A stretch of DNA of 64,000 nt from an uncultured Acidimicrobiaceae bacterium (GTDB lineage Bacteria; Actinomycetota; Acidimicrobiia; Acidimicrobiales; RAAP-2), in NCBI GenBank assembly GCA_903894295.1, contig CAITPI010000087.1, forward strand, positions 1 to 64,000. The letters are read 5' to 3'. The notes beneath the pieces are model-generated. The model was given only the letters and a program-made list of their open reading frames with translations. It was not told where the DNA came from and did no database searches. Made by a program: the position numbers and the translations under genes. Positions 8,449 to 56,135 of the stretch are shown here, piece by piece; the first letter of the stretch is position 1, and every line of letters begins with the position of its first letter.

Positions 8449-9111
8449 TTACGGGCCGACGAGCAGTTGCTGGACGCTGGCTTCCGCGTCCTTGGTCACC
8501 AGAAGAAGAACTTCATCGCCGACCGAAAGGCGGGTGTCGCCCCGGGGGACGATCAACCGGTCACCCCGCACGACAGCCACCACGGTGGCGTCCCGGGGAA
8601 TGTTGAGATCGGCCAGGGTGACTTCGGCCGCCGGCGAATCATCGGCCAGCGTCACTTCGACGAGGTGGGCGGATCCGCCTTCGAAGGCCAGCAGGCGGAC
8701 CAGACTGCCGACCGAAACCGCTTCTTCCACCAGGGCAGTCAGGAGTTGGGGGGTGGACACCGAGACGTCGACGCCCCAGGTCTCGGTGAACAGCCACTGG
8801 TTCTTCGGGTGGTTCACCCGGGCCACCACCCGGGGCACGGCGAACTCCTGCTTGGCCAGAAGGGAGACAACCAGGTTGTCCTCGTCGTCACCGGTGGCGG
8901 CGACCACCACGTCGACCGTGTCCATGCCGGCCGCTTGCAGCGAAGCGACTTCGCAGGCATCGGCGATGACCCACTCCACGTCGACCTCGTCACGTTCCCG
9001 CTGGACCGTATCCGGGTCGCGCTCGATCAGCATGACCTGGTGGCCGGCCCGGTGGAGATCCTCGGCAATGGCGATGCCCACGCTGCCTGCCCCGGCGATG
9101 GCGACCTTCAT
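8449..9111 (-). CDS. trkA: TrkA-family potassium uptake regulator (second copy)
   Basis: 220 residues. An N-terminal Rossmann RCK domain opens with MKVAIAGAGSVGIAIAEDL and carries the acidic end of beta-2 (MLIERD). A C-terminal RCK_C (TrkA-C) domain covers roughly 138-218. Such proteins form rings on the cytoplasmic face of Trk/Ktr or related K+ transporters, gate them in response to NAD(H) or nucleotides, and in several bacteria bind c-di-AMP through RCK_C. Its start overlaps the stop of the upstream trkA gene (ATGA), so the two subunits are coupled, matching the CeoB/CeoC pair of mycobacteria. The divergent permease gene is the likely partner. Confidence 0.92.
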   Translation of the reverse strand: MKVAIAGAGSVGIAIAEDLHRAGHQVMLIERDPDTVQRERDEVDVEWVIADACEVASLQAAGMDTVDVVVAATGDDEDNLVVSLLAKQEFAVPRVVARVNHPKNQWLFTETWGVDVSVSTPQLLTALVEEAVSVGSLVRLLAFEGGSAHLVEVTLADDSPAAEVTLADLNIPRDATVVAVVRGDRLIVPRGDTRLSVGDEVLLLVTKDAEASVQQLLVGP

Positions 9112-9773
9112 TCCGGACTCCCTTCGAGATGGAGATGGAGTGCCGGCATGGCCCGTTCCATGGCCATGAAGTGCAGGATGTCGCCGTCCTGGCCCACCAG
9201 TTCCTGGAAGTCGAGCCGCGGCACCCCGCTGCGGGTGACGGCGGTCAGGGTGAACTGGCCGGCGACGCTGAGGTCAGATAGTTTACGACCGGCCCAACCA
9301 TCGGGCAGGCGCCGTTCCACGAGGGTCATGGAGCCGGTGGCGTCGATCCAGTCGGTGCTGAGCGACGACGGGAAGAGCCCCCGACGCACCTGGTCGATGG
9401 TCCAGGACACGGTGGCCACCGTCGGAATGCCGAGGCGGAGGTAGATCTGGGCGCGCCGCGGATCGTAGATGCGGGCCACCACGTTCGGGATGTTGTAGGT
9501 CTCGCGGGCGATTCGGGCGGTGAGGATGTTGGAGTTGTCCCCACTGGTCACGGCGGCGAGCGAGTCAGCCGAACCGGCCCGGGCCAGGTCGAGGTCGTCA
9601 CGGTCGAATCCCGATCCGACGATCTTCTGGCCCGTCCAGTCCGGAGGCAGCCGGCGAAAGGCCTTGGGGTTCCGGTCGATGATGGCCACGCTGTGACCCT
9701 GTTCGACCAGTTCGATCCCCAGCCCGGAACCAACCCGGCCACAGCCGACGATGACGATGTGCACCCAACCCAT
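9108..9773 (-). CDS. trkA: TrkA-family potassium uptake regulator (first copy)
   Basis: 221 residues from the ATG at 9773. A GTG at 9764 (VHIVIVGCGRVG) is an equally reasonable start, and the track start at 9800 adds an unlikely Cys-rich leader. The Rossmann fingerprint is GCGRVGSGLG, with AIIDRN ending beta-2 and a TSGDNSNILTARIAR stretch typical of RCK domains. The C-terminal half (LVERRLPDGWAGRKLSDL, FTLTAVTRSG) is the RCK_C domain. It is the CeoB-like member of the pair and is translated first. It is divergent from the permease across a 233-bp spacer, which would hold both promoters. Confidence 0.92.
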   Translation of the reverse strand: MGWVHIVIVGCGRVGSGLGIELVEQGHSVAIIDRNPKAFRRLPPDWTGQKIVGSGFDRDDLDLARAGSADSLAAVTSGDNSNILTARIARETYNIPNVVARIYDPRRAQIYLRLGIPTVATVSWTIDQVRRGLFPSSLSTDWIDATGSMTLVERRLPDGWAGRKLSDLSVAGQFTLTAVTRSGVPRLDFQELVGQDGDILHFMAMERAMPALHLHLEGSPE

Positions 9774-10006
9774 GCAACACGGTCCGGCGCCGGTACACAA
9801 CTCTTTGGTCGATCTTTCCCTGGATCAACGGGCCGAACCTCCCGGTCAAAACGGGTGGGGCGACACCGGTGAGGCAATGGGAACACAGGGCCCCGTTGTC
9901 GGCGTGATGGAACATCACCGAACCCTGGACGGCCGGAGCCGGTCGTCAACGTTCCTGCCCTGGGCCGGGTTACCGGATCACGCCACCGAGGTGGTTTACT
10001 GGCGTC

Positions 10007-12517
10007 GTGGATCCCGACGCAACCGGGCCCGTCCCGGGCCACATTGACGAATCATCCCCGGCGGCTGCCACAACGGTGGACCGTCCGGAGGAAAAGGTCG
10101 GGCGGACGGAAGATCCGAGGATGCGGCCCCAGGCCATGCCCCAGGTGTCCGTGGACCTGCCCGAGACGCTGCGCTACCGCATAAAGAACGTCCTCCTCGG
10201 GCCGCCCCTGGTGAATGAGCGCCTGTCGGGTGAGCGGTTGGGCCGACCTTCGGCGCTGGGCGTGCTTGCCCCGGACTGCATCTCGTCTTCGGCCTACGGG
10301 TCCGAGGAGATGTTGAACCAGCTGATCCCCTTCATCGGTCTCTCCGCCTTCGCCCTGGTGGTGCCGATCACCATGGCCATCCTCGGCGTGCTGTTCTTTG
10401 TCACCCTCTCCTACCTTGACGTCATCAAGCGTTACACCCAGGCCGGCGGGGCGTACGTGGTGGCTCGGGAAAACTTCGGGCCGCGCATCGCCCAGGTGGC
10501 GTCGGTGGCGCTCTTGATCGACTACACCGTGACCGTCGCCGTGCAGACGGCGGCCGGCACGGACGGACTGACGAGCGCCTTTCCGTCACTTACCCCGTGG
10601 ACGGTGGAGATCACCGTGGGGGTGATTCTGCTGTTGCTCTACGGCAACCTGCGGGGAATCCGGGAAGCGGGGAAGATCTTTGCCTTCCCCACCTACTTCT
10701 TCATCTTCTCCCTGGCCTTCGTGGTGGTCGCGGGTTATGTCGCCAAGGCCATGGGCCACCTGCACGCCCAGGCCATCTCGGCGCACTGCACGGCGACCGC
10801 GGCGGCCGGCTGCCCGTTGGTGCAAACCCACGCCGCCACCGGTAGGAGCTTCCTTTACGGGGCCACCTTCATCGTGCTGTTGCGGAGTTTCGCCAACGGT
10901 GGTTCGTCGCTCACCGGTCTCGAGGCCATCTCCAACGGGGTGGGTACCTTCCGTGAACCGACGGCCCGGAACGCCCGGCAGACCCTGGTCATCATGAGTT
11001 CGGTTCTCGGTTTCCTCGTGCTTGGCGTGACCCTGCTGGCCCACTGGACGCACGCCGTTCCCTACACGAACGGGACACCGACGGTCGTCTCCCAGGAGGT
11101 CAAGCTCGTCTTCGGCCACGGCACGTTCGGGACCACGGTCTTCTTCATTGTCCAGGCCGCCACGGTGCTCGTGCTCTACACCGGAGGCAACACCAGTTTC
11201 AACGGCTTTCCCTTCCTGGCCAGTTATGTGGCCCACGACGGTTATCTGCCCAAGCGCCTGTTGAAACGGGGCCACCGCCTCGTGTTCTCCGACGGCATCA
11301 TCGTCCTCACGGTGGTCGCCCTGGCGTTGGTTCTGGCCACCGGAGCCAACCTGGCGTCGCTGGTGGCGCTCTATGCCATCGGGGTGTTCACCGGGTTCAC
11401 CATGGCCGGCAGTGGAATGGTGAAGTTCTGGCTCGACAAGCGGGGCCCGAACTGGAAGTGGCACGTGGCCATCAACGGGTTCTCGGCCCTGTTGTCGCTC
11501 TCGGTGGTGCTGATCTTTGCCATCGTGAAGTTCCGGGAAGGGGCGTGGGTTGTCGTGGTGGTCGGTCCCTTGATGTTCTGGGGTCTGATCCGGGTTCGCA
11601 AGCAGACAGTCGAAGAAGACGAGCAACTTGTGGAAGGTGTGAACGAAGCGGCGGAGGCGCCGACCATGAAGCGCCACAGCGTGATCGTGATGGTCGACCG
11701 CCTCGACCTCGCCACGGCCCGGGCCCTGCAGTACGCCCGCACCCTGCATCCCGACGAGTTGCGGGCGGTGCACTTCGCACTTGATGAAGTGGCGTCCCGG
11801 GCCCTCGAGGCCGAGTGGAGCCGCCTCGGACTGTCGCAGCTGCCGCTCGACATCGAAGCCTGCGAGGACCGGCGCCTGACCCGGGCTTCGCTGCAACTGG
11901 CCGCCGAAACGGTGGCCGACGGTCAGACCGAACTGACGGTGCTGTTGCCCCGAAGGGGCTTCGCCGCCGGGTGGCAGCGCATCCTGCACGACGCCACCGC
12001 CGACCGGATCGCTTCCGCCGTTGGTGAACTGACCCATGTCAACGCCACCGTGGTTCCTTACCAGCTGTCCGGAGGGTGGCTGGCCAACCGTCGCAACTGG
12101 GGGAGACGCAAGGAGGCCGAGAAGATGCCCGTGCCTTCGGGTGCGGGCCAGCGCTCGTCGGACCGGGCCCAGGACCCGGCGGCGGCGGCCCAGGCCCTGC
12201 TGCACCGGGAGGCCTTCGGCGAACGGGCCCGGGGGACGGTACCCATCAGCGACATCCAGTGGCGCAGCCGGGTGCGGGTGGCGGGCCGGATCAAGTCGGT
12301 CCGGGTGCAGCCCCGTGCCGGCACCTCGAATCTCGAGTGCGTGTTGGCGGATGCCACCGGCCAACTGACGTTGGTCTTCCAGGGTCGCCGGCGGGTGCCG
12401 GGTATCCAGCCGGGAGCCCGTCTGGTCGTTGAGGGAATGGTCGGGGACTGGGCCCGGCACCACGCCATGCTCAATCCCGACTACGAACTCGTGGCCGGAC
12501 CCGACGCCGACGACTGA
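10007..12517 (+). CDS. APC-superfamily permease fused to a C-terminal OB-fold domain
   Basis: 836 residues. The first ~90 are a soluble leader. Residues ~95-545 form an APC/KUP-like transporter of about 12 helices, beginning SALGVLAPDCISSSAYGSEE. A cytoplasmic region (~565-700, HSVIVMVDRLDLATARALQYARTL) resembles a universal-stress-type fold. The last ~89 residues from SDIQWRSRVRVAG are a clear OB-fold (LECVLADATGQLTLVFQGRR, GARLVVEGMVG). Many actinobacteria encode such a permease and a small OB-fold protein as separate neighbours of the TrkA pair; here they are one polypeptide. Potassium transport is inferred from the divergent trkA genes, but amino-acid transport cannot be excluded. The GTG at 10007 lies 6 nt after a TTTACT box. 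Confidence 0.88.
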   Translation: MDPDATGPVPGHIDESSPAAATTVDRPEEKVGRTEDPRMRPQAMPQVSVDLPETLRYRIKNVLLGPPLVNERLSGERLGRPSALGVLAPDCISSSAYGSEEMLNQLIPFIGLSAFALVVPITMAILGVLFFVTLSYLDVIKRYTQAGGAYVVARENFGPRIAQVASVALLIDYTVTVAVQTAAGTDGLTSAFPSLTPWTVEITVGVILLLLYGNLRGIREAGKIFAFPTYFFIFSLAFVVVAGYVAKAMGHLHAQAISAHCTATAAAGCPLVQTHAATGRSFLYGATFIVLLRSFANGGSSLTGLEAISNGVGTFREPTARNARQTLVIMSSVLGFLVLGVTLLAHWTHAVPYTNGTPTVVSQEVKLVFGHGTFGTTVFFIVQAATVLVLYTGGNTSFNGFPFLASYVAHDGYLPKRLLKRGHRLVFSDGIIVLTVVALALVLATGANLASLVALYAIGVFTGFTMAGSGMVKFWLDKRGPNWKWHVAINGFSALLSLSVVLIFAIVKFREGAWVVVVVGPLMFWGLIRVRKQTVEEDEQLVEGVNEAAEAPTMKRHSVIVMVDRLDLATARALQYARTLHPDELRAVHFALDEVASRALEAEWSRLGLSQLPLDIEACEDRRLTRASLQLAAETVADGQTELTVLLPRRGFAAGWQRILHDATADRIASAVGELTHVNATVVPYQLSGGWLANRRNWGRRKEAEKMPVPSGAGQRSSDRAQDPAAAAQALLHREAFGERARGTVPISDIQWRSRVRVAGRIKSVRVQPRAGTSNLECVLADATGQLTLVFQGRRRVPGIQPGARLVVEGMVGDWARHHAMLNPDYELVAGPDADD

Positions 12518-12825: not shown

Positions 12826-15198
<2,373 letters not shown>

Positions 15199-42664: not shown

Positions 42665-44074
42665 ATGGCCAGATCCACCATGCACCATCGCTGCCTTGAT
42701 TGTGGCGCCACGACGATCCGGTGGGCCGGACGTTGCCCGACCTGTGGCGAGTGGAACACGCTGGTCGAAGAGGACATTCTCGATCCGTTGGTCAAGGCGG
42801 TGGACGCCCTGGATCTCCGGGCAGAGGCCATTCAGCTGGCGTCGGTCGACGTCTCGGAAGCGGCCGCCGTTGCCACCGGGGTCGGCGAGTTCGACCGGGT
42901 GCTGTCGGGAGGACTCGTTCCCGGATCGGTGACCTTGCTCGGCGGTGAGCCCGGCATCGGAAAGTCAACCTTGCTTCTGCAGGTTCTCGCCGCCCGGGCG
43001 GCCAAGGGACACAAGGTGCTCCTGGTCTCGGCCGAAGAGTCGGCCCACCAGGTCCGGCTCCGGGCCGAGCGGCTCGGTCCGATCCCTGACGGGTTGATGA
43101 TCCTGGGCACCACCGAGGTGCAGGCCGTCCTGGCCGTGGTGGAGGACACCCGGCCGGACCTGGTGGTGGTCGACTCCATACAGGCCGTCTCGGCCGGCCC
43201 GACGGGTCCCGGGGAGCGGCGCACCTCCGGGGTGCCCGGCAGCGTGACCCAGGTTCGCGAGAGCGCCGACCTGCTGGTGGGCATGGCGAAGTCCCGCCAG
43301 GTGGCCACGGTCCTGGTGGGGCACGTCACCAAGGACGGAGGTCTGGCCGGTCCCCGGGCCCTCGAGCACATGGTCGACACCGTGCTCTCGTTTGAAGGTG
43401 ACCGTCACCACTCGCTCCGCCTGTTGCTGGCGGTCAAACACCGCTTCGGGCCCACCGGCGAACTGGGTCTCTTCGAGATGGGTGACCAGGGACTGAACGC
43501 AGTGGTCGACCCGGGCCGTCTTCTGCTCGGCGACCGGTTGACCGGGGTGCCGGGCGGGGTGATCATGCCGGCCATGCAAGGCCGACGGACCCTGCTGGTG
43601 GAGTTGCAGGCGCTGGTGGCCCCCATGGCCCTGTCCCAGCCCAAGCGCTCCGTCGTGGGTCTGGACGCCAACCGCTTGGTGATGAGCCTCGCCGTGCTCG
43701 ACCGACATGCCCGGATGCCACTCGGAAACTCCGATGTCTTCGCATCGGTGGTCGGGGGGATCCGGGTCACCGAGCCGGCAGCCGATCTTGCCGTGATCAT
43801 GGCGGTGGTGTCGGCCAACCTCGGCCACCCCCTGCCCCCGGACCTTGCCGCCCTCGGCGAGGTCGGTCTGGCCGGCGAACTTCGCCAGGTGACCGGCATG
43901 CCCCGAAGGCTCGAGGAGTGCGCCCGGCTGGGCATCGGCCAGGTGGTGGTGCCCCGATCGACTCCTCCGGGACCGGACGAGGTCCAACTTCTCCGAGCCG
44001 AATCCGTGCCCGAGGCCCTCGCTCTCTGCTTCCCGGCTGACACACCGTGGAACGGTTCCCGCCCCTCTGCCTGA
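42665..44074 (+). CDS. radA: DNA repair protein RadA
   Basis: 469 residues. The N-terminal zinc finger is CLDCGATTIRWAGRCPTCGEW, followed by the RecA-like ATPase with GEPGIGKSTLLLQVLAARA, LVSAEESAHQVRLRAERLG, and the RadA-specific KHRFGPTGELGLFEM (KNRFG motif with His for Asn). The C-terminal Lon-like domain is present (DVFASVVGGIRVTEPAADLAVIMAVVSANLG). It aids branch migration in recombination. It shares a region with disA, its common genomic partner, with an ATP-grasp gene between them. Confidence 0.95.
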   Translation: MARSTMHHRCLDCGATTIRWAGRCPTCGEWNTLVEEDILDPLVKAVDALDLRAEAIQLASVDVSEAAAVATGVGEFDRVLSGGLVPGSVTLLGGEPGIGKSTLLLQVLAARAAKGHKVLLVSAEESAHQVRLRAERLGPIPDGLMILGTTEVQAVLAVVEDTRPDLVVVDSIQAVSAGPTGPGERRTSGVPGSVTQVRESADLLVGMAKSRQVATVLVGHVTKDGGLAGPRALEHMVDTVLSFEGDRHHSLRLLLAVKHRFGPTGELGLFEMGDQGLNAVVDPGRLLLGDRLTGVPGGVIMPAMQGRRTLLVELQALVAPMALSQPKRSVVGLDANRLVMSLAVLDRHARMPLGNSDVFASVVGGIRVTEPAADLAVIMAVVSANLGHPLPPDLAALGEVGLAGELRQVTGMPRRLEECARLGIGQVVVPRSTPPGPDEVQLLRAESVPEALALCFPADTPWNGSRPSA

Positions 44075-44098
44075 TGCGCGGACCCACGGGCTGATCCG

Positions 44099-44998
44099 GT
44101 GGGACCGCGTGACGTGCTGCTTCTGACCGAGCCCAAGCATCCGCCCCGGAGCGGTCCGCCGTCGGCGTTCTACGAACCCGGCCGGGGCAATCTCCTGGCC
44201 GAGGCTCTACTGGCCCGGGGGCACCGGGTGGTGATGTGGTGGGACCACCCGGTCGGCCCGATGGTGCCCGCCGACCCCGGTGTGGTCGCCCTCCGGTCCT
44301 CCCACCCGGTCCAGTTGGCCCGGGCCGAGGTCTTCGCCCGGATGGGGGTGCCGGTGGTGAACGATCCGGTGGCCCATCGCCGGGCCCGGGACAAGCTCCA
44401 CCAGCACGAAGTTCTGGGGGCGGCCGGACTTCTGGTGCCCGAGACGACCGGGGTCGGGACGGCGACGGCCCGTTGGCACGGGAACGACCTGGTGGTCGTC
44501 AAACCCCGGGTCGGCACCTCGGGTCGGTCTGTGCGCCGGGGCCGGTGGGGCGTCATGGCCCCGGAGGTGGGACCGGACGATCTGGTGCAGCGCTTCGTTG
44601 ACGCCGAGGTCGAACTCCGGGCCACGGTCGTGAGGTCCCGGTACGGATCGGTGCCTTTGGTCAACTGGTCCCGTCGCCGGGCGGCCCCCGGCGACTTCCG
44701 GGCCAACCTGGCCCAGGGAGGAAGCATGGAGGAGTATGGACCGGTGGACCCGGCCGTCGACGAGGTGGCGGTGGCGGCGGTCGAGTTGCTCGGGCTGCAG
44801 GTGGGAGGCGTCGACGTGCTGTTGACCTCTTCGGGTCCGGTCATCCTGGAAGTGAACGCCGCCACCACCCTGCACGGTCCGACCCGGGTGGCGACCGAAC
44901 ACGTGGTGGCGGCGGTGTGCGACGTGTTGGTCGACGAGTCGACGCCACCCGGGCCGGGAAGCGGGCCGACTGCAGTGCTCGCACCGGGACATCCGTAA
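44099..44998 (+). CDS. ATP-grasp (RimK-like) enzyme
   Basis: 299 residues. The RimK-type ATP-grasp layout shows in VLLLTEPKHPPRSGPPSAFYEPGRGNLLAEALLARGHRVVMWW, NDPVAHRRARDKLHQHEVLGAAGLLVPET, NDLVVVKPRVGTSGRSVRRG, DDLVQRFVDAEVELRATVVRSRYGSVPLVNWSRR, FRANLAQGGS and GVDVLLTSSGPVILEVNAATTL. These enzymes join a carboxylate to an amine or thiol via acyl phosphate. The partner substrates are unknown. It starts 24 nt after radA and ends 56 nt before disA, which has its own promoter. Alternative start GTG 44108. Confidence 0.82.
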   Translation: MGPRDVLLLTEPKHPPRSGPPSAFYEPGRGNLLAEALLARGHRVVMWWDHPVGPMVPADPGVVALRSSHPVQLARAEVFARMGVPVVNDPVAHRRARDKLHQHEVLGAAGLLVPETTGVGTATARWHGNDLVVVKPRVGTSGRSVRRGRWGVMAPEVGPDDLVQRFVDAEVELRATVVRSRYGSVPLVNWSRRRAAPGDFRANLAQGGSMEEYGPVDPAVDEVAVAAVELLGLQVGGVDVLLTSSGPVILEVNAATTLHGPTRVATEHVVAAVCDVLVDESTPPGPGSGPTAVLAPGHP

Positions 44999-45042
44999 CG
45001 CACTCTTCACATGCCGCCCGACAGCACCGGGGTTTTGGGGGT

Positions 45043-45048
45043 TACCAT
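45043..45048 (+). promoter_or_regulatory. -10 box of disA, leaderless type
   Basis: TACCAT ends 6 nt before the GTG at 45055, giving a leaderless disA transcript. It also decides the start against the far upstream track start. Confidence 0.5.
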
Positions 45049-45054
45049 GCCAAC

Positions 45055-46143
45055 GTGATCGTCCGTCACGGAACGCCGATGAGCGATGCCCTGTCGTTGG
45101 TGGCTCCGGGCCGTCCATTCCGCGCCGGACTGGACCGGATCCTGCACGCCAAGCGAGGTGGACTGGTCGTGGTGGGTGACGGCCCCGACGTGCTCGCCAT
45201 CTGCTCCGGTGGCTTCCTGCTGGACGCCGAGTTCACTCCGCAGCGACTTTCCGAGTTGGCCAAGATGGACGGAGCCATCATCGTGACCCCGGATGTCTCC
45301 CGCATCGCCCGGGCCAATGTGCAACTGATGCCCGATGCGGCTACCCCAACGAGCGAGACCGGAACCCGGCACCGCACCGCCGAGCGGGTGGCCCGTTCCA
45401 TCGACGTGCCCGTGCTCGCCGTCTCGGCTTCCATGTCCATGATCACCGTCTACCGGCAGGCCGGAAAGCACGCCATCCAGCCGACACCGTGGCTGCTCGG
45501 GCGGACCGACCAGGCGTTGGCGACGATGCAGCGGTTCCGGGCCCGCTTTGACGCCGCCCTCGGGTCCCTCTCCACCCTCGAAGTCGAAGACTCGGTCTCC
45601 CTGGGCGACGTGGTGGCGGCCATCCAGTCGGCGGAGATGGTCCTGCGGATTGCCGAGGAGGTCGATGGCTACCTTGTGGAACTGGGCGACGACGGCCGGT
45701 TGGTCGGTCTGCAGTCGGCCGAGCTGGTCGACGGCGTGGCCACTGCCTTGCATCTGGTTGTCCGGGACTACGCCGACCTGGCGGACAGCGATGCCGACCT
45801 GGTCGTGACGGCCAACCGGGTGGCCGCCCTGTTGGCAGAACTCCCCTCCGACGAACTGCGCCATCCGGCCCGGGTGGCCGAGGTGGCCAACCTTCCGGGT
45901 TCGTTCCTCGATGCCGAGTCGGCCATGGAGTCCCGGGGATTCCGGCTGCTGTCGCGCCTGCCCCGGCTCTCGGACGCCCTGATCCTGCGCATCGTCGAAC
46001 GGTTCGGCCGCCTGCCGCACCTGATGCGGGCGTCCATCACCGAACTCGAACAGGTCGAGGGCGTCGGCCAGATGCGGGCCCGTCAGGTCAAGGAAGGTCT
46101 GGCCCGCCTGGCTGAAGCCAGCATCTTCGAGCGCTACCAGTAG
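45055..46143 (+). CDS. disA: Diadenylate cyclase / DNA integrity scanning protein DisA
   Basis: 362 residues. The DAC domain has the DGA motif (LAKMDGAIIVTPD) and RHR motif (GTRHRTAERVARS), both needed to join two ATP into c-di-AMP. A linker helical domain and C-terminal HhH DNA-binding module follow (ASITELEQVEGVGQMRARQVKEGLARLAE). DisA senses branched DNA and is linked functionally and genomically to RadA, encoded 1 kb upstream. c-di-AMP usually controls potassium and osmolyte transport; the TrkA pair at 8-10 kb are candidate receptors, by inference only. Confidence 0.95.
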   Translation: MIVRHGTPMSDALSLVAPGRPFRAGLDRILHAKRGGLVVVGDGPDVLAICSGGFLLDAEFTPQRLSELAKMDGAIIVTPDVSRIARANVQLMPDAATPTSETGTRHRTAERVARSIDVPVLAVSASMSMITVYRQAGKHAIQPTPWLLGRTDQALATMQRFRARFDAALGSLSTLEVEDSVSLGDVVAAIQSAEMVLRIAEEVDGYLVELGDDGRLVGLQSAELVDGVATALHLVVRDYADLADSDADLVVTANRVAALLAELPSDELRHPARVAEVANLPGSFLDAESAMESRGFRLLSRLPRLSDALILRIVERFGRLPHLMRASITELEQVEGVGQMRARQVKEGLARLAEASIFERYQ

Positions 46144-46224
46144 GGATCGGCCGTCCGGAGATGCGGTCTCCGGGGCGGCCGGGGTGGCCGGGGTGGGTCG
46201 ACCGGGGCCGGGGCCGTCACCGTG

Positions 46225-46230
46225 TAGAAT
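46225..46230 (+). promoter_or_regulatory. -10 box of carD
   Basis: TAGAAT, preceded by GTG, is the best -10 match between disA and carD. It implies a leader of about 65 nt ending in AGGAGG. No good -35 was seen at 16-18 nt, as is common for this genome. Confidence 0.45.
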
Positions 46231-46301
46231 GGCTTTCTCCCCCGGACGCATCCCAAGGAACGGCCCGGGCGCGGAGTTTGCACGCAACGCCAGGAGGAAC
46301 G

Positions 46302-46778
46302 GTGTTCGACATCGGAGACAAAGTGGTCTATCCCCATCACGGCGCCGCCGTGGTGGAGAAGCGGGAGACCATCGAGGCGTTCGGCAACAAGCAGGAGTAT
46401 CTGGTGCTGCGACTCGCCTATGGCGACCTGACGCTCAAGGTACCGGCCGACAACACCGACGGAGTGGGCCTGCGCGAAGTGATCAACGACGAAGAAGTCG
46501 AGGAAGTCTTCGCCGTGCTGCGCAAGAAGGAAGCCCGCATGCCCACCAACTGGTCCCGCCGTTACAAGAACCACTCGGAGAAACTCCGTTCCGGCGACAT
46601 CTACCAGGTGGCCGAAGTGGTGCGGAACCTCTCGATCCGGGACAAGGACAAGGGCCTCTCGGCCGGGGAGAAGCGCATGCTGAGCCGGGCCCGCCAGATC
46701 CTGGTGTCCGAGTTGACCTTTGCCCTGAACGTCGACGAAGAGACGGCCGAAGTGCGTCTCGACGAGGCGCTGCCCTGA
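46302..46778 (+). CDS. carD: CarD-family RNA polymerase-binding regulator
   Basis: 158 residues from GTG 46302, preceded by AGGAGG. The N-terminal RNAP-interaction domain (VFDIGDKVVYPHHGAAVVEKRETIEAFGNKQEYLVLRLAYGDLTLKVPADN) matches CarD closely; the C-terminal helical DNA-binding domain includes NWSRRYKNHSEKLRSGDIYQVAEVVRNL and KRMLSRARQILVSEL. It stabilises open complexes at rRNA and many other promoters. The pairing carD-ispD-ispF is conserved in actinobacteria. Its TGA overlaps the proposed ispD start. Confidence 0.95.
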   Translation: MFDIGDKVVYPHHGAAVVEKRETIEAFGNKQEYLVLRLAYGDLTLKVPADNTDGVGLREVINDEEVEEVFAVLRKKEARMPTNWSRRYKNHSEKLRSGDIYQVAEVVRNLSIRDKDKGLSAGEKRMLSRARQILVSELTFALNVDEETAEVRLDEALP

Positions 46779-47440
46779 GCCGACCCGGCTCGGTCTGGGC
46801 CGTGGTGGTGGCCGGAGGGTCGGGCCAGCGGTTCGGGGCACCCAAGCAGTTTCTTCCTCTGGACGGCCGGCCCGTGGTGACCTGGGCGGTCGAGTCCGCC
46901 CGCAGCGTGGCCGAGGCTGTCGTGCTGGTGGTCCCGGCCGAAGTTGGCCCGGAGGACGACGGCACCCACTGGGGAGCGGACCTGGTGGTCACCGGCGGAG
47001 CCACCCGGTCGGCTTCGGTGCGCCGGGGTCTGGCGTTGGTCCCTGATGACGTCGAACTCGTACTGGTCCACGATGCGGCCCGTCCGCTCGCCTCTCCCGG
47101 TCTGTTCGCGTCGGTGGTGGATGCCCTTGCCGGCGACAGGGAATGCTCGGGCGTCGTGCCGCTCCTGCCGGTGGCCGACACCCTGAAGTACTACCGCGAC
47201 GACGTGGTCACGGGAACCCTGGACCGGGATGGAATCGGCATGGTGCAGACCCCCCAGGGGTTTCGGGCCGCCACGCTGCGCCAGGTGCACGCCGCCGGTG
47301 ATGACGCCACCGATGACGCCGCCTTGCTCGAAGCCCACGGCCACCGGGTCGGCGTGGTGCCGGGGGAATCGACGAACCTGAAGATCACCCGGAGGGAAGA
47401 CCTCGCCGTGATCGAAGCGCTGCGTAGGGTGGAGCCATGA
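46775..47440 (+). CDS. ispD: 2-C-methyl-D-erythritol 4-phosphate cytidylyltransferase
   Basis: 221 residues if translation begins at CTG 46775, which overlaps the carD stop (CTGA). The first in-frame GTG (46802) would cut into the first beta strand of SVWAVVVAGGSGQRFGAPKQFLPL, the CTP-binding loop; the track ORF starts inside carD. Other motifs: VLVVPAEV, LVLVHDAARPL, VVPLLPVADTLKY and MVQTPQGFRAATLRQVH. It forms CDP-methylerythritol in the MEP isoprenoid pathway. The stop is coupled to ispF by ATGA. The start codon remains uncertain. Confidence 0.88.
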   Translation: MSRPGSVWAVVVAGGSGQRFGAPKQFLPLDGRPVVTWAVESARSVAEAVVLVVPAEVGPEDDGTHWGADLVVTGGATRSASVRRGLALVPDDVELVLVHDAARPLASPGLFASVVDALAGDRECSGVVPLLPVADTLKYYRDDVVTGTLDRDGIGMVQTPQGFRAATLRQVHAAGDDATDDAALLEAHGHRVGVVPGESTNLKITRREDLAVIEALRRVEP

Positions 47441-55814: not shown

Positions 55815-56135
55815 GGGGTCACATTCCGGGGGCCGGACGGACGCCGGGCAGAAGAGTCGGTGGGAGACACGTCCCTATCTTCCCTCATGACGGGGCCTCG
55901 GGGAAACGGCAGCGCTGGCAACCTGCCCGGGCCAGGTGGGACAGGCTCGTGGGTCCGAAAAGTTCCAGGGTGAGGATTGACGGCCTCGTCCCCATCAGCC
56001 ACAATGGATGCATCATCCAGAGCAGCTGAGGGACCGGGCCCGAAGACGCTGCGGCAACCAGATCGACTCCGGGCCGTTTCGTGAAGCGGTTCCCCGTCGT
56101 GCCAGGTGCCAATGCCCGAGCGATGAGGAGACGAT
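55815..56135 (+). promoter_or_regulatory. Divergent region gpgS-like / thrC
   Basis: 321 bp. The right 120 bp are the SAM riboswitch (separate entry). TTGACG at 55977-55982 could be its -35 box, with CACAATGG about 18 nt further on; a good -10 was not found. The left part must hold the minus-strand promoter of the GpgS-like gene. Confidence 0.45.
56009..56130 (+). ncRNA. SAM-I (S-box) riboswitch
   Basis: The conserved core is present in order: CATCATCCAGAG, GCAGCTGAGGGACCGGGCCC, GAAGACGCTGCGGCAACC, a P3 arm, GGTGCCAATGCCCGAG and GATGAGG. GCAGC pairs with GCTGC (P2), CGAC with GTCG and CCGTTTC with GAAGCGG (P3, with bulges), and CATC with GATG (P1). The 3' strand of P1 runs directly into GAGGAG, the thrC ribosome binding site, at 56125-56130. 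Binding of SAM should stabilise P1 and limit ribosome access, so control is probably translational. Confidence 0.88.

Follow-up and report, generated by a model that had tools for sequence, protein, structure and literature searches.

The window, that is the whole stretch of 64,000 nucleotides analysed, is part of a fragmented draft assembly in 137 contigs. As described in the original prediction, it carries a single open reading frame of 836 residues divergent from two coupled trkA genes, which overlap by 4 nt (Table 1). Of these two, the one closer to the divergent promoter region probably starts at a GTG near 9767. The first ~40-50 residues of the large frame are disordered and poorly conserved, so that its true start may lie downstream of the listed GTG, for example at the ATG at 10118. 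Directly downstream is hppA, and its product carries a ten-residue motif which we take to mark the K+-independent type of H+-pyrophosphatase. Among KimA loci linked to TrkA, 31 of 64 have an H+-pyrophosphatase gene at a distance of up to 4 kb, versus 2 of 53 unlinked ones, hinting that TrkA-linked KimA loci are a neighbourhood of proton pumping and H+-K+ symport.

Farther along the window (42665-47440), radA-like, disA, carD-like and ispD-like genes are consecutive, all names except disA being assigned by eye from the sequences; this order is the usual disA neighbourhood of actinobacteria. An Rfam scan of the window found no riboswitch at the kimA/trkA locus, and elsewhere two tRNAs and one SAM riboswitch (RF00162, 54.7 bits, 56010-56129).

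Table 1. Genes and protein domains discussed in the text, with their positions in the window
Feature	Position	Strand	Remarks
second trkA gene	8449..9111	-	TrkA_N + TrkA_C
trkA gene proximal to divergent promoter region	9108..9800	-	TrkA_N match; NAD-type GxGxxG present, c-di-AMP motif of RCK_C absent
kimA-OB fusion gene	10007..12517	+	836 aa, GTG start as listed
12-TM KimA/KUP-type (APC superfamily) transmembrane domain	10169..11629	+	residues ~55-541
KimA cytosolic (PPAT-like) alpha/beta domain	11672..12064	+	residues ~556-686; c-di-AMP pocket site in KimA
variable, low-confidence linker	12065..12229	+	residues ~687-741
OB-fold domain	12245..12496	+	residues ~747-830; signature GRR.I.GI..G and NP.YEL
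hppA, membrane H+-pyrophosphatase	12826..15198	+	
disA (diadenylate cyclase, c-di-AMP synthase)	44917..46143	+	

A KimA-type transporter joined to an OB-fold

The APC/KUP-like character proposed for the permease was borne out: residues 93-507 match the APC superfamily (Pfam AA_permease_2, E = 1.1e-23), and a sequence search of the PDB gave KimA (YdaO) of Bacillus subtilis, a K+/H+ symporter of the KUP family, as the best and sole relative (PDB 6s3k/8b70/8b71; phmmer E = 1.7e-90, residues 57-667). The AlphaFold model of the protein also matches KimA 8b70 (Foldseek E = 3.4e-33). Judged by these matches, the segment of residues ~55-667 is a K+ transporter of the KimA type, presumably H+-coupled; no NCBIfam equivalog scored over its cut-off with the fused protein. 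The soluble alpha/beta region had been read as a separate, universal-stress-like module fused to the permease. This reading has to be abandoned, as a Pfam search with E up to 1 gave no Usp match in the 836-residue frame and the region aligns to the cytosolic domain of KimA; since the KimA match continues through it, it is KimA's own PPAT-like cytosolic domain. In KimA, K+ is coordinated by Asp36, Tyr43, Thr230 and Tyr377 (PMC10284832). The equivalent residues in the window protein are D90, Y97, T303 and Y456, and these four ligands are invariant in 136-137 of 137 fused members, the exception being one gapped row. The B. subtilis and window proteins have in common the 12-TM domain, the PPAT-like domain, the K+ ligands, a basic residue at the R337 position and H579. 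Unlike B. subtilis KimA, the window protein has an added C-terminal linker and OB-fold as well as substitutions in the c-di-AMP pocket (see below), and its gene adjoins a TrkA pair.

The predicted C-terminal OB-fold was also recovered. Residues 756-828 match Pfam tRNA_anti-codon (cut-off 27 bits) with 30.1-30.6 bits when the C-terminus is scanned alone and with 26.3 bits in the full-length protein, and 54 of 60 members of this OB family match the same model (E <= 0.01). The AlphaFold model, a monomer, shows the domain as a beta-barrel (mean pLDDT 92), undocked at the end of a low-confidence linker. Its fold neighbours are the OB-folds of LysRS, RPA, SSB and polymerases, at ~10-21% identity, and its nearest relatives in sequence are the tRNA_anti-codon OB family and, with marginal scores, the wedge OB-fold of RecG. 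An identity as RecG was rejected, given a RecG_wedge score of 17.6 bits (Pfam cut-off 23) and no helicase domain in a Pfam search of the fused protein; the RecG wedge is joined to a DNA enzyme, whereas the domain here is joined to a transporter. Residues R753, G760, D782, G793-R794, G799, G803, G810, N823-P824 and Y826 are conserved in fused and standalone OB proteins. The net charge of the core is mildly positive, with means of +3.2 in fused and +3.8 in standalone forms,; individual fused proteins span -4 to +8.

The 836-residue frame is one gene and the fusion is real. In total, 117 distinct sequences of fused KimA-OB proteins were collected, and they come from many assemblies. The fusion is present in almost all genomes of the family to which the window's organism belongs, and in other families of its order and class. 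Carriers include Acidimicrobiaceae MAGs, Ca. Planktophila lacus (closed chromosome NZ_CP016769.1), Streptomyces sp. ICBB 8177, Kitasatospora, Embleya hyalina, Pseudonocardia acidicola and Catenulispora. That two genes were joined artificially near 12240, by a frameshift or by an error of assembly or sequencing, is excluded; nothing was found in favour of this besides the fragmented state of the draft, and against it the fusion recurs in all these sequences, the closed chromosome and isolate genomes among them, and both the reading frame and the third-position GC run on without a break across the junction.

Fused and split forms and their TrkA and TrkH context

In other actinobacteria the OB-fold protein is indeed encoded as a separate small neighbour, in many arrangements, and in the loci read the split gene is near KimA and/or the trkA pair. 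It may be directly downstream of kimA on the same strand, directly upstream of it (L097-L103 and L105, apart from L099 and L104), beyond the trkA pair (for example L051, L052, L054, L106-L112, L205 and L209-L215), a position also seen in several other classes, convergent (L053), or last in a kimA-trkA-trkA-OB operon (L206-L208). In all 16 downstream cases the OB could start at a codon -38 to +4 nt from the kimA stop, counted from its first base, and seven of them have ATGA or GTGA overlaps, which suggests that the two genes would be translationally coupled. Comparison of fused and split forms revealed repeated changes of state: a FastTree tree of 190 KimA-domain sequences requires at least 7 changes between fused and not fused over well-supported branches (10 by parsimony), and a smaller maximum-likelihood tree of KimA domains at least 4, these counts pooling fusions, fissions and losses. 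Some KimA proteins of Streptomyces and Amycolatopsis (L155, L161, L162, L187, L189, L193 and L195; ~660-690 aa), ~50% identical to the fused protein, have no OB nearby, apparently through loss of the OB or as paralogues that never had it.

The OB, KimA and the TrkA pair are one module in Actinomycetota. In a non-random sample of loci, some of which were fetched on account of a known OB or KimA match, the OB was fused or near in all 99 distinct TrkA-linked KimA loci, and the 23 KimA loci without an OB all lacked TrkA nearby. Another 58 fused loci had no TrkA in view, some of them at contig ends; thus the fused form does not require TrkA. A less biased sample, spread evenly over the class of the window's organism, comprised 247 genomes; 97 of them had a strong OB match, and every one of these also matched the KimA-OB query. 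KimA was not found in one of the 97 (G071), whose single match to that query is probably the OB itself. At the locus concerned (L196, G071:C4, 6568-8448) an OB gene and a TrkA pair have no KimA in view, and the next gene is major-facilitator-like. Either KimA was lost or missed in this genome, which may be an incomplete MAG, or another transporter is in its place.

The OB and TrkH are almost mutually exclusive across the 247 genomes, TrkH being present in 6 of the 97 with the OB versus 114 of the 150 without it (Fisher p = 8e-30, shared descent ignored). A search of the genome of the window's organism (95% complete) found no TrkH, while the same search was positive in 11 of 14 control genomes. 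The only strong TrkA_N matches of that genome are the two genes at the locus, two other matches being weak. The NAD-type motif GxGxxG is present in 207 of 208 TrkA proteins. In this the system resembles the TrkH-TrkA and KtrB-KtrA channels, whose TrkA/RCK proteins have the same NAD-type Rossmann motif; it differs from them in that TrkH is absent from the genome and the proposed membrane partner is a LeuT-fold symporter, not a TrkH channel. The two-subunit TrkA ring TM1088A/B of Thermotoga maritima is likewise a split, two-gene assembly, and we know of no OB-fold or KimA link for it. The paper on this ring (PMC4380455) deals with the cytosolic portion of a putative Trk transporter.

A putative K+ uptake module and its control

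The best explanation of these data, which we consider probable, is that the locus encodes a K+ uptake module of actinobacteria. Its membrane component would be KimA, and not TrkH, and the TrkA pair as well as the OB would serve KimA as dedicated regulators in the cytosol. The product of the fusion gene would be a K+ uptake transporter of the KimA type, presumably H+-coupled, to which an OB-fold subunit is permanently attached, and it would form one system with the divergently encoded NAD-binding TrkA (RCK) pair. Five observations underlie this explanation: the domains, the fusion, the conservation of the module, the complementarity with TrkH and the invariant K+ ligands. Transport activity itself is deduced from them, as are physical contact and the direction of regulation. 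Tethered flexibly through its linker, the OB would lie close to the dimer formed by the cytosolic part of KimA, and would most likely act by protein contact on this dimer and/or on the TrkA ring, setting transport activity. Against this explanation stand the 58 fused loci with no TrkA in view, the G071 locus with its OB and TrkA pair but no KimA, and the undocked OB of the monomer model. The original prediction took the fusion as demonstrating a physical action of the OB on the transporter. A fusion alone is insufficient for this. As a Rosetta-stone argument it supports a physical or functional link, which is strengthened by the repeated fused/split changes, the apparent translational coupling of the split forms and the phylogenetic profiles; taken together, this evidence makes such an action likely. 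That the OB acts physically on the transporter is therefore, in our view, a good inference, and the OB-fold protein is likely a dedicated part of a K+ uptake system replacing the absent TrkH channel.

As an alternative in line with the RNA- or nucleotide-sensing gate of the original prediction, the OB could bind RNA, ssDNA or a small nucleotide and signal its occupancy to the transporter. The tRNA_anti-codon score over the cut-off, the weak similarity to the RecG wedge, the match in fold to LysRS, RPA and SSB, the mean positive charge and the conserved GRR are all in line with such a gate. However, OB-folds also act as protein-protein modules, the likeness to nucleic-acid-binding members is at the level of fold only, the charge varies widely among fused members, and split OB genes adjoin one transporter and not RNA or DNA genes, which leaves this gate an unlikely candidate with some modest chance of being correct. 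Less probable still is that the OB has a separate job and is merely co-expressed, the fusion fixing its stoichiometry or membrane location with no regulation of transport. The long variable linker of the fused forms and the absence of the OB in some cases, for example in Streptomyces KimA (~670 aa, ~51% identity), would suit this possibility; the near-strict co-occurrence of OB and KimA across 247 genomes in several arrangements, the repeated fusion or fission and the apparent translational coupling argue against it.

The control of the fused KimA may also differ from that known in Bacillus, where KimA is inhibited by c-di-AMP bound at the cytosolic domain, with contacts including Arg337, His579, Gln581 and Ser582 (PMC10284832). 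It would be quite improbable that the fused protein is a standard c-di-AMP-inhibited KimA to which the OB is incidental. Such a standard transporter would fit the presence in the same window of disA, the single diadenylate cyclase gene found in the genome, so that c-di-AMP is probably made in this organism, and also the pocket residues that are retained, position 337 being basic (K/R) in most fused members, His579 kept and position 582 Ser or Thr (S582T in the window protein). Against it, the fused family has the fixed changes V457E, A481D, F568R and N580D, and positions P479 and Q581 are changed too; the window protein has E537 (just before the cytosolic domain), D564, R650, H661 and D662. 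Moreover, in several fused-type genomes, some of them 95-97% complete, no match to the DAC family of diadenylate cyclases was found, nor was one in the closed Ca. Planktophila lacus chromosome that encodes KimA-OB (L157), and the pocket letters are unchanged in these genomes. From the sequences it thus appears unlikely that c-di-AMP is the general ligand of the fused branch, whose pocket possibly binds another ligand or none. Sensing of c-di-AMP by the TrkA pair through RCK_C was rejected, the c-di-AMP motif of this domain being found in 0 of 208 TrkA proteins. This agrees with data on S. venezuelae, where only two of six RCK_C domains, those of CpeA and Vnz_28520, bind c-di-AMP, and where the non-binders include Vnz_27460, whose locus number adjoins that of the KimA-like Vnz_27465 (PMC10117811, which in part cites unpublished data).

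Implications for Trk systems of Actinomycetota

The M. tuberculosis genes ceoB, ceoC and Rv2690c resemble the window locus in that two TrkA genes lie beside a permease and TrkH is undescribed. The OB is separate there, in contrast to the fused form of the window, Rv2694c being the mycobacterial OB protein. Three reports describe the M. tuberculosis Trk system as two TrkA proteins (PMC13163235, PMC4553272, PMC6375644), and in the passages found the membrane subunit goes unnamed; in the first two the system is a constitutive one for K+ uptake, and both of its proteins are soluble. In a transposon screen, ceoB and the adjacent Rv2690c were grouped by a shared enhanced survival in rifampicin (PMC12216072). 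TrkH is absent from S. venezuelae, which carries two KimA-like transporters (PMC10117811). In the literature searched, Rv2690c is named neither as KimA nor as the membrane subunit of CeoBC; the open-access search returned no description of a KimA-CeoBC link or of a KimA-OB fusion, absence there being no proof. Our data suggest the neighbouring KimA as the membrane partner of "Trk" (CeoBC) systems that lack TrkH. In its widest form the proposal is more tentative, with a chance somewhat short of even: a hybrid complex of a KimA symporter, a two-gene TrkA/RCK assembly and the OB may replace TrkH in Actinomycetota and supply the CeoBC membrane subunit in mycobacteria and streptomycetes, with the pocket of the fused branch reading a ligand other than c-di-AMP.

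The module, the near-exclusion of TrkH and the OB-KimA fusion point to the neighbouring KimA-like permease as the membrane part of the M. tuberculosis Trk system. If the module reading is true, the OB protein would be a third, unstudied subunit of Trk systems of this type. The data also suggest that a branch of KimA transporters may have exchanged control by c-di-AMP for some other input.
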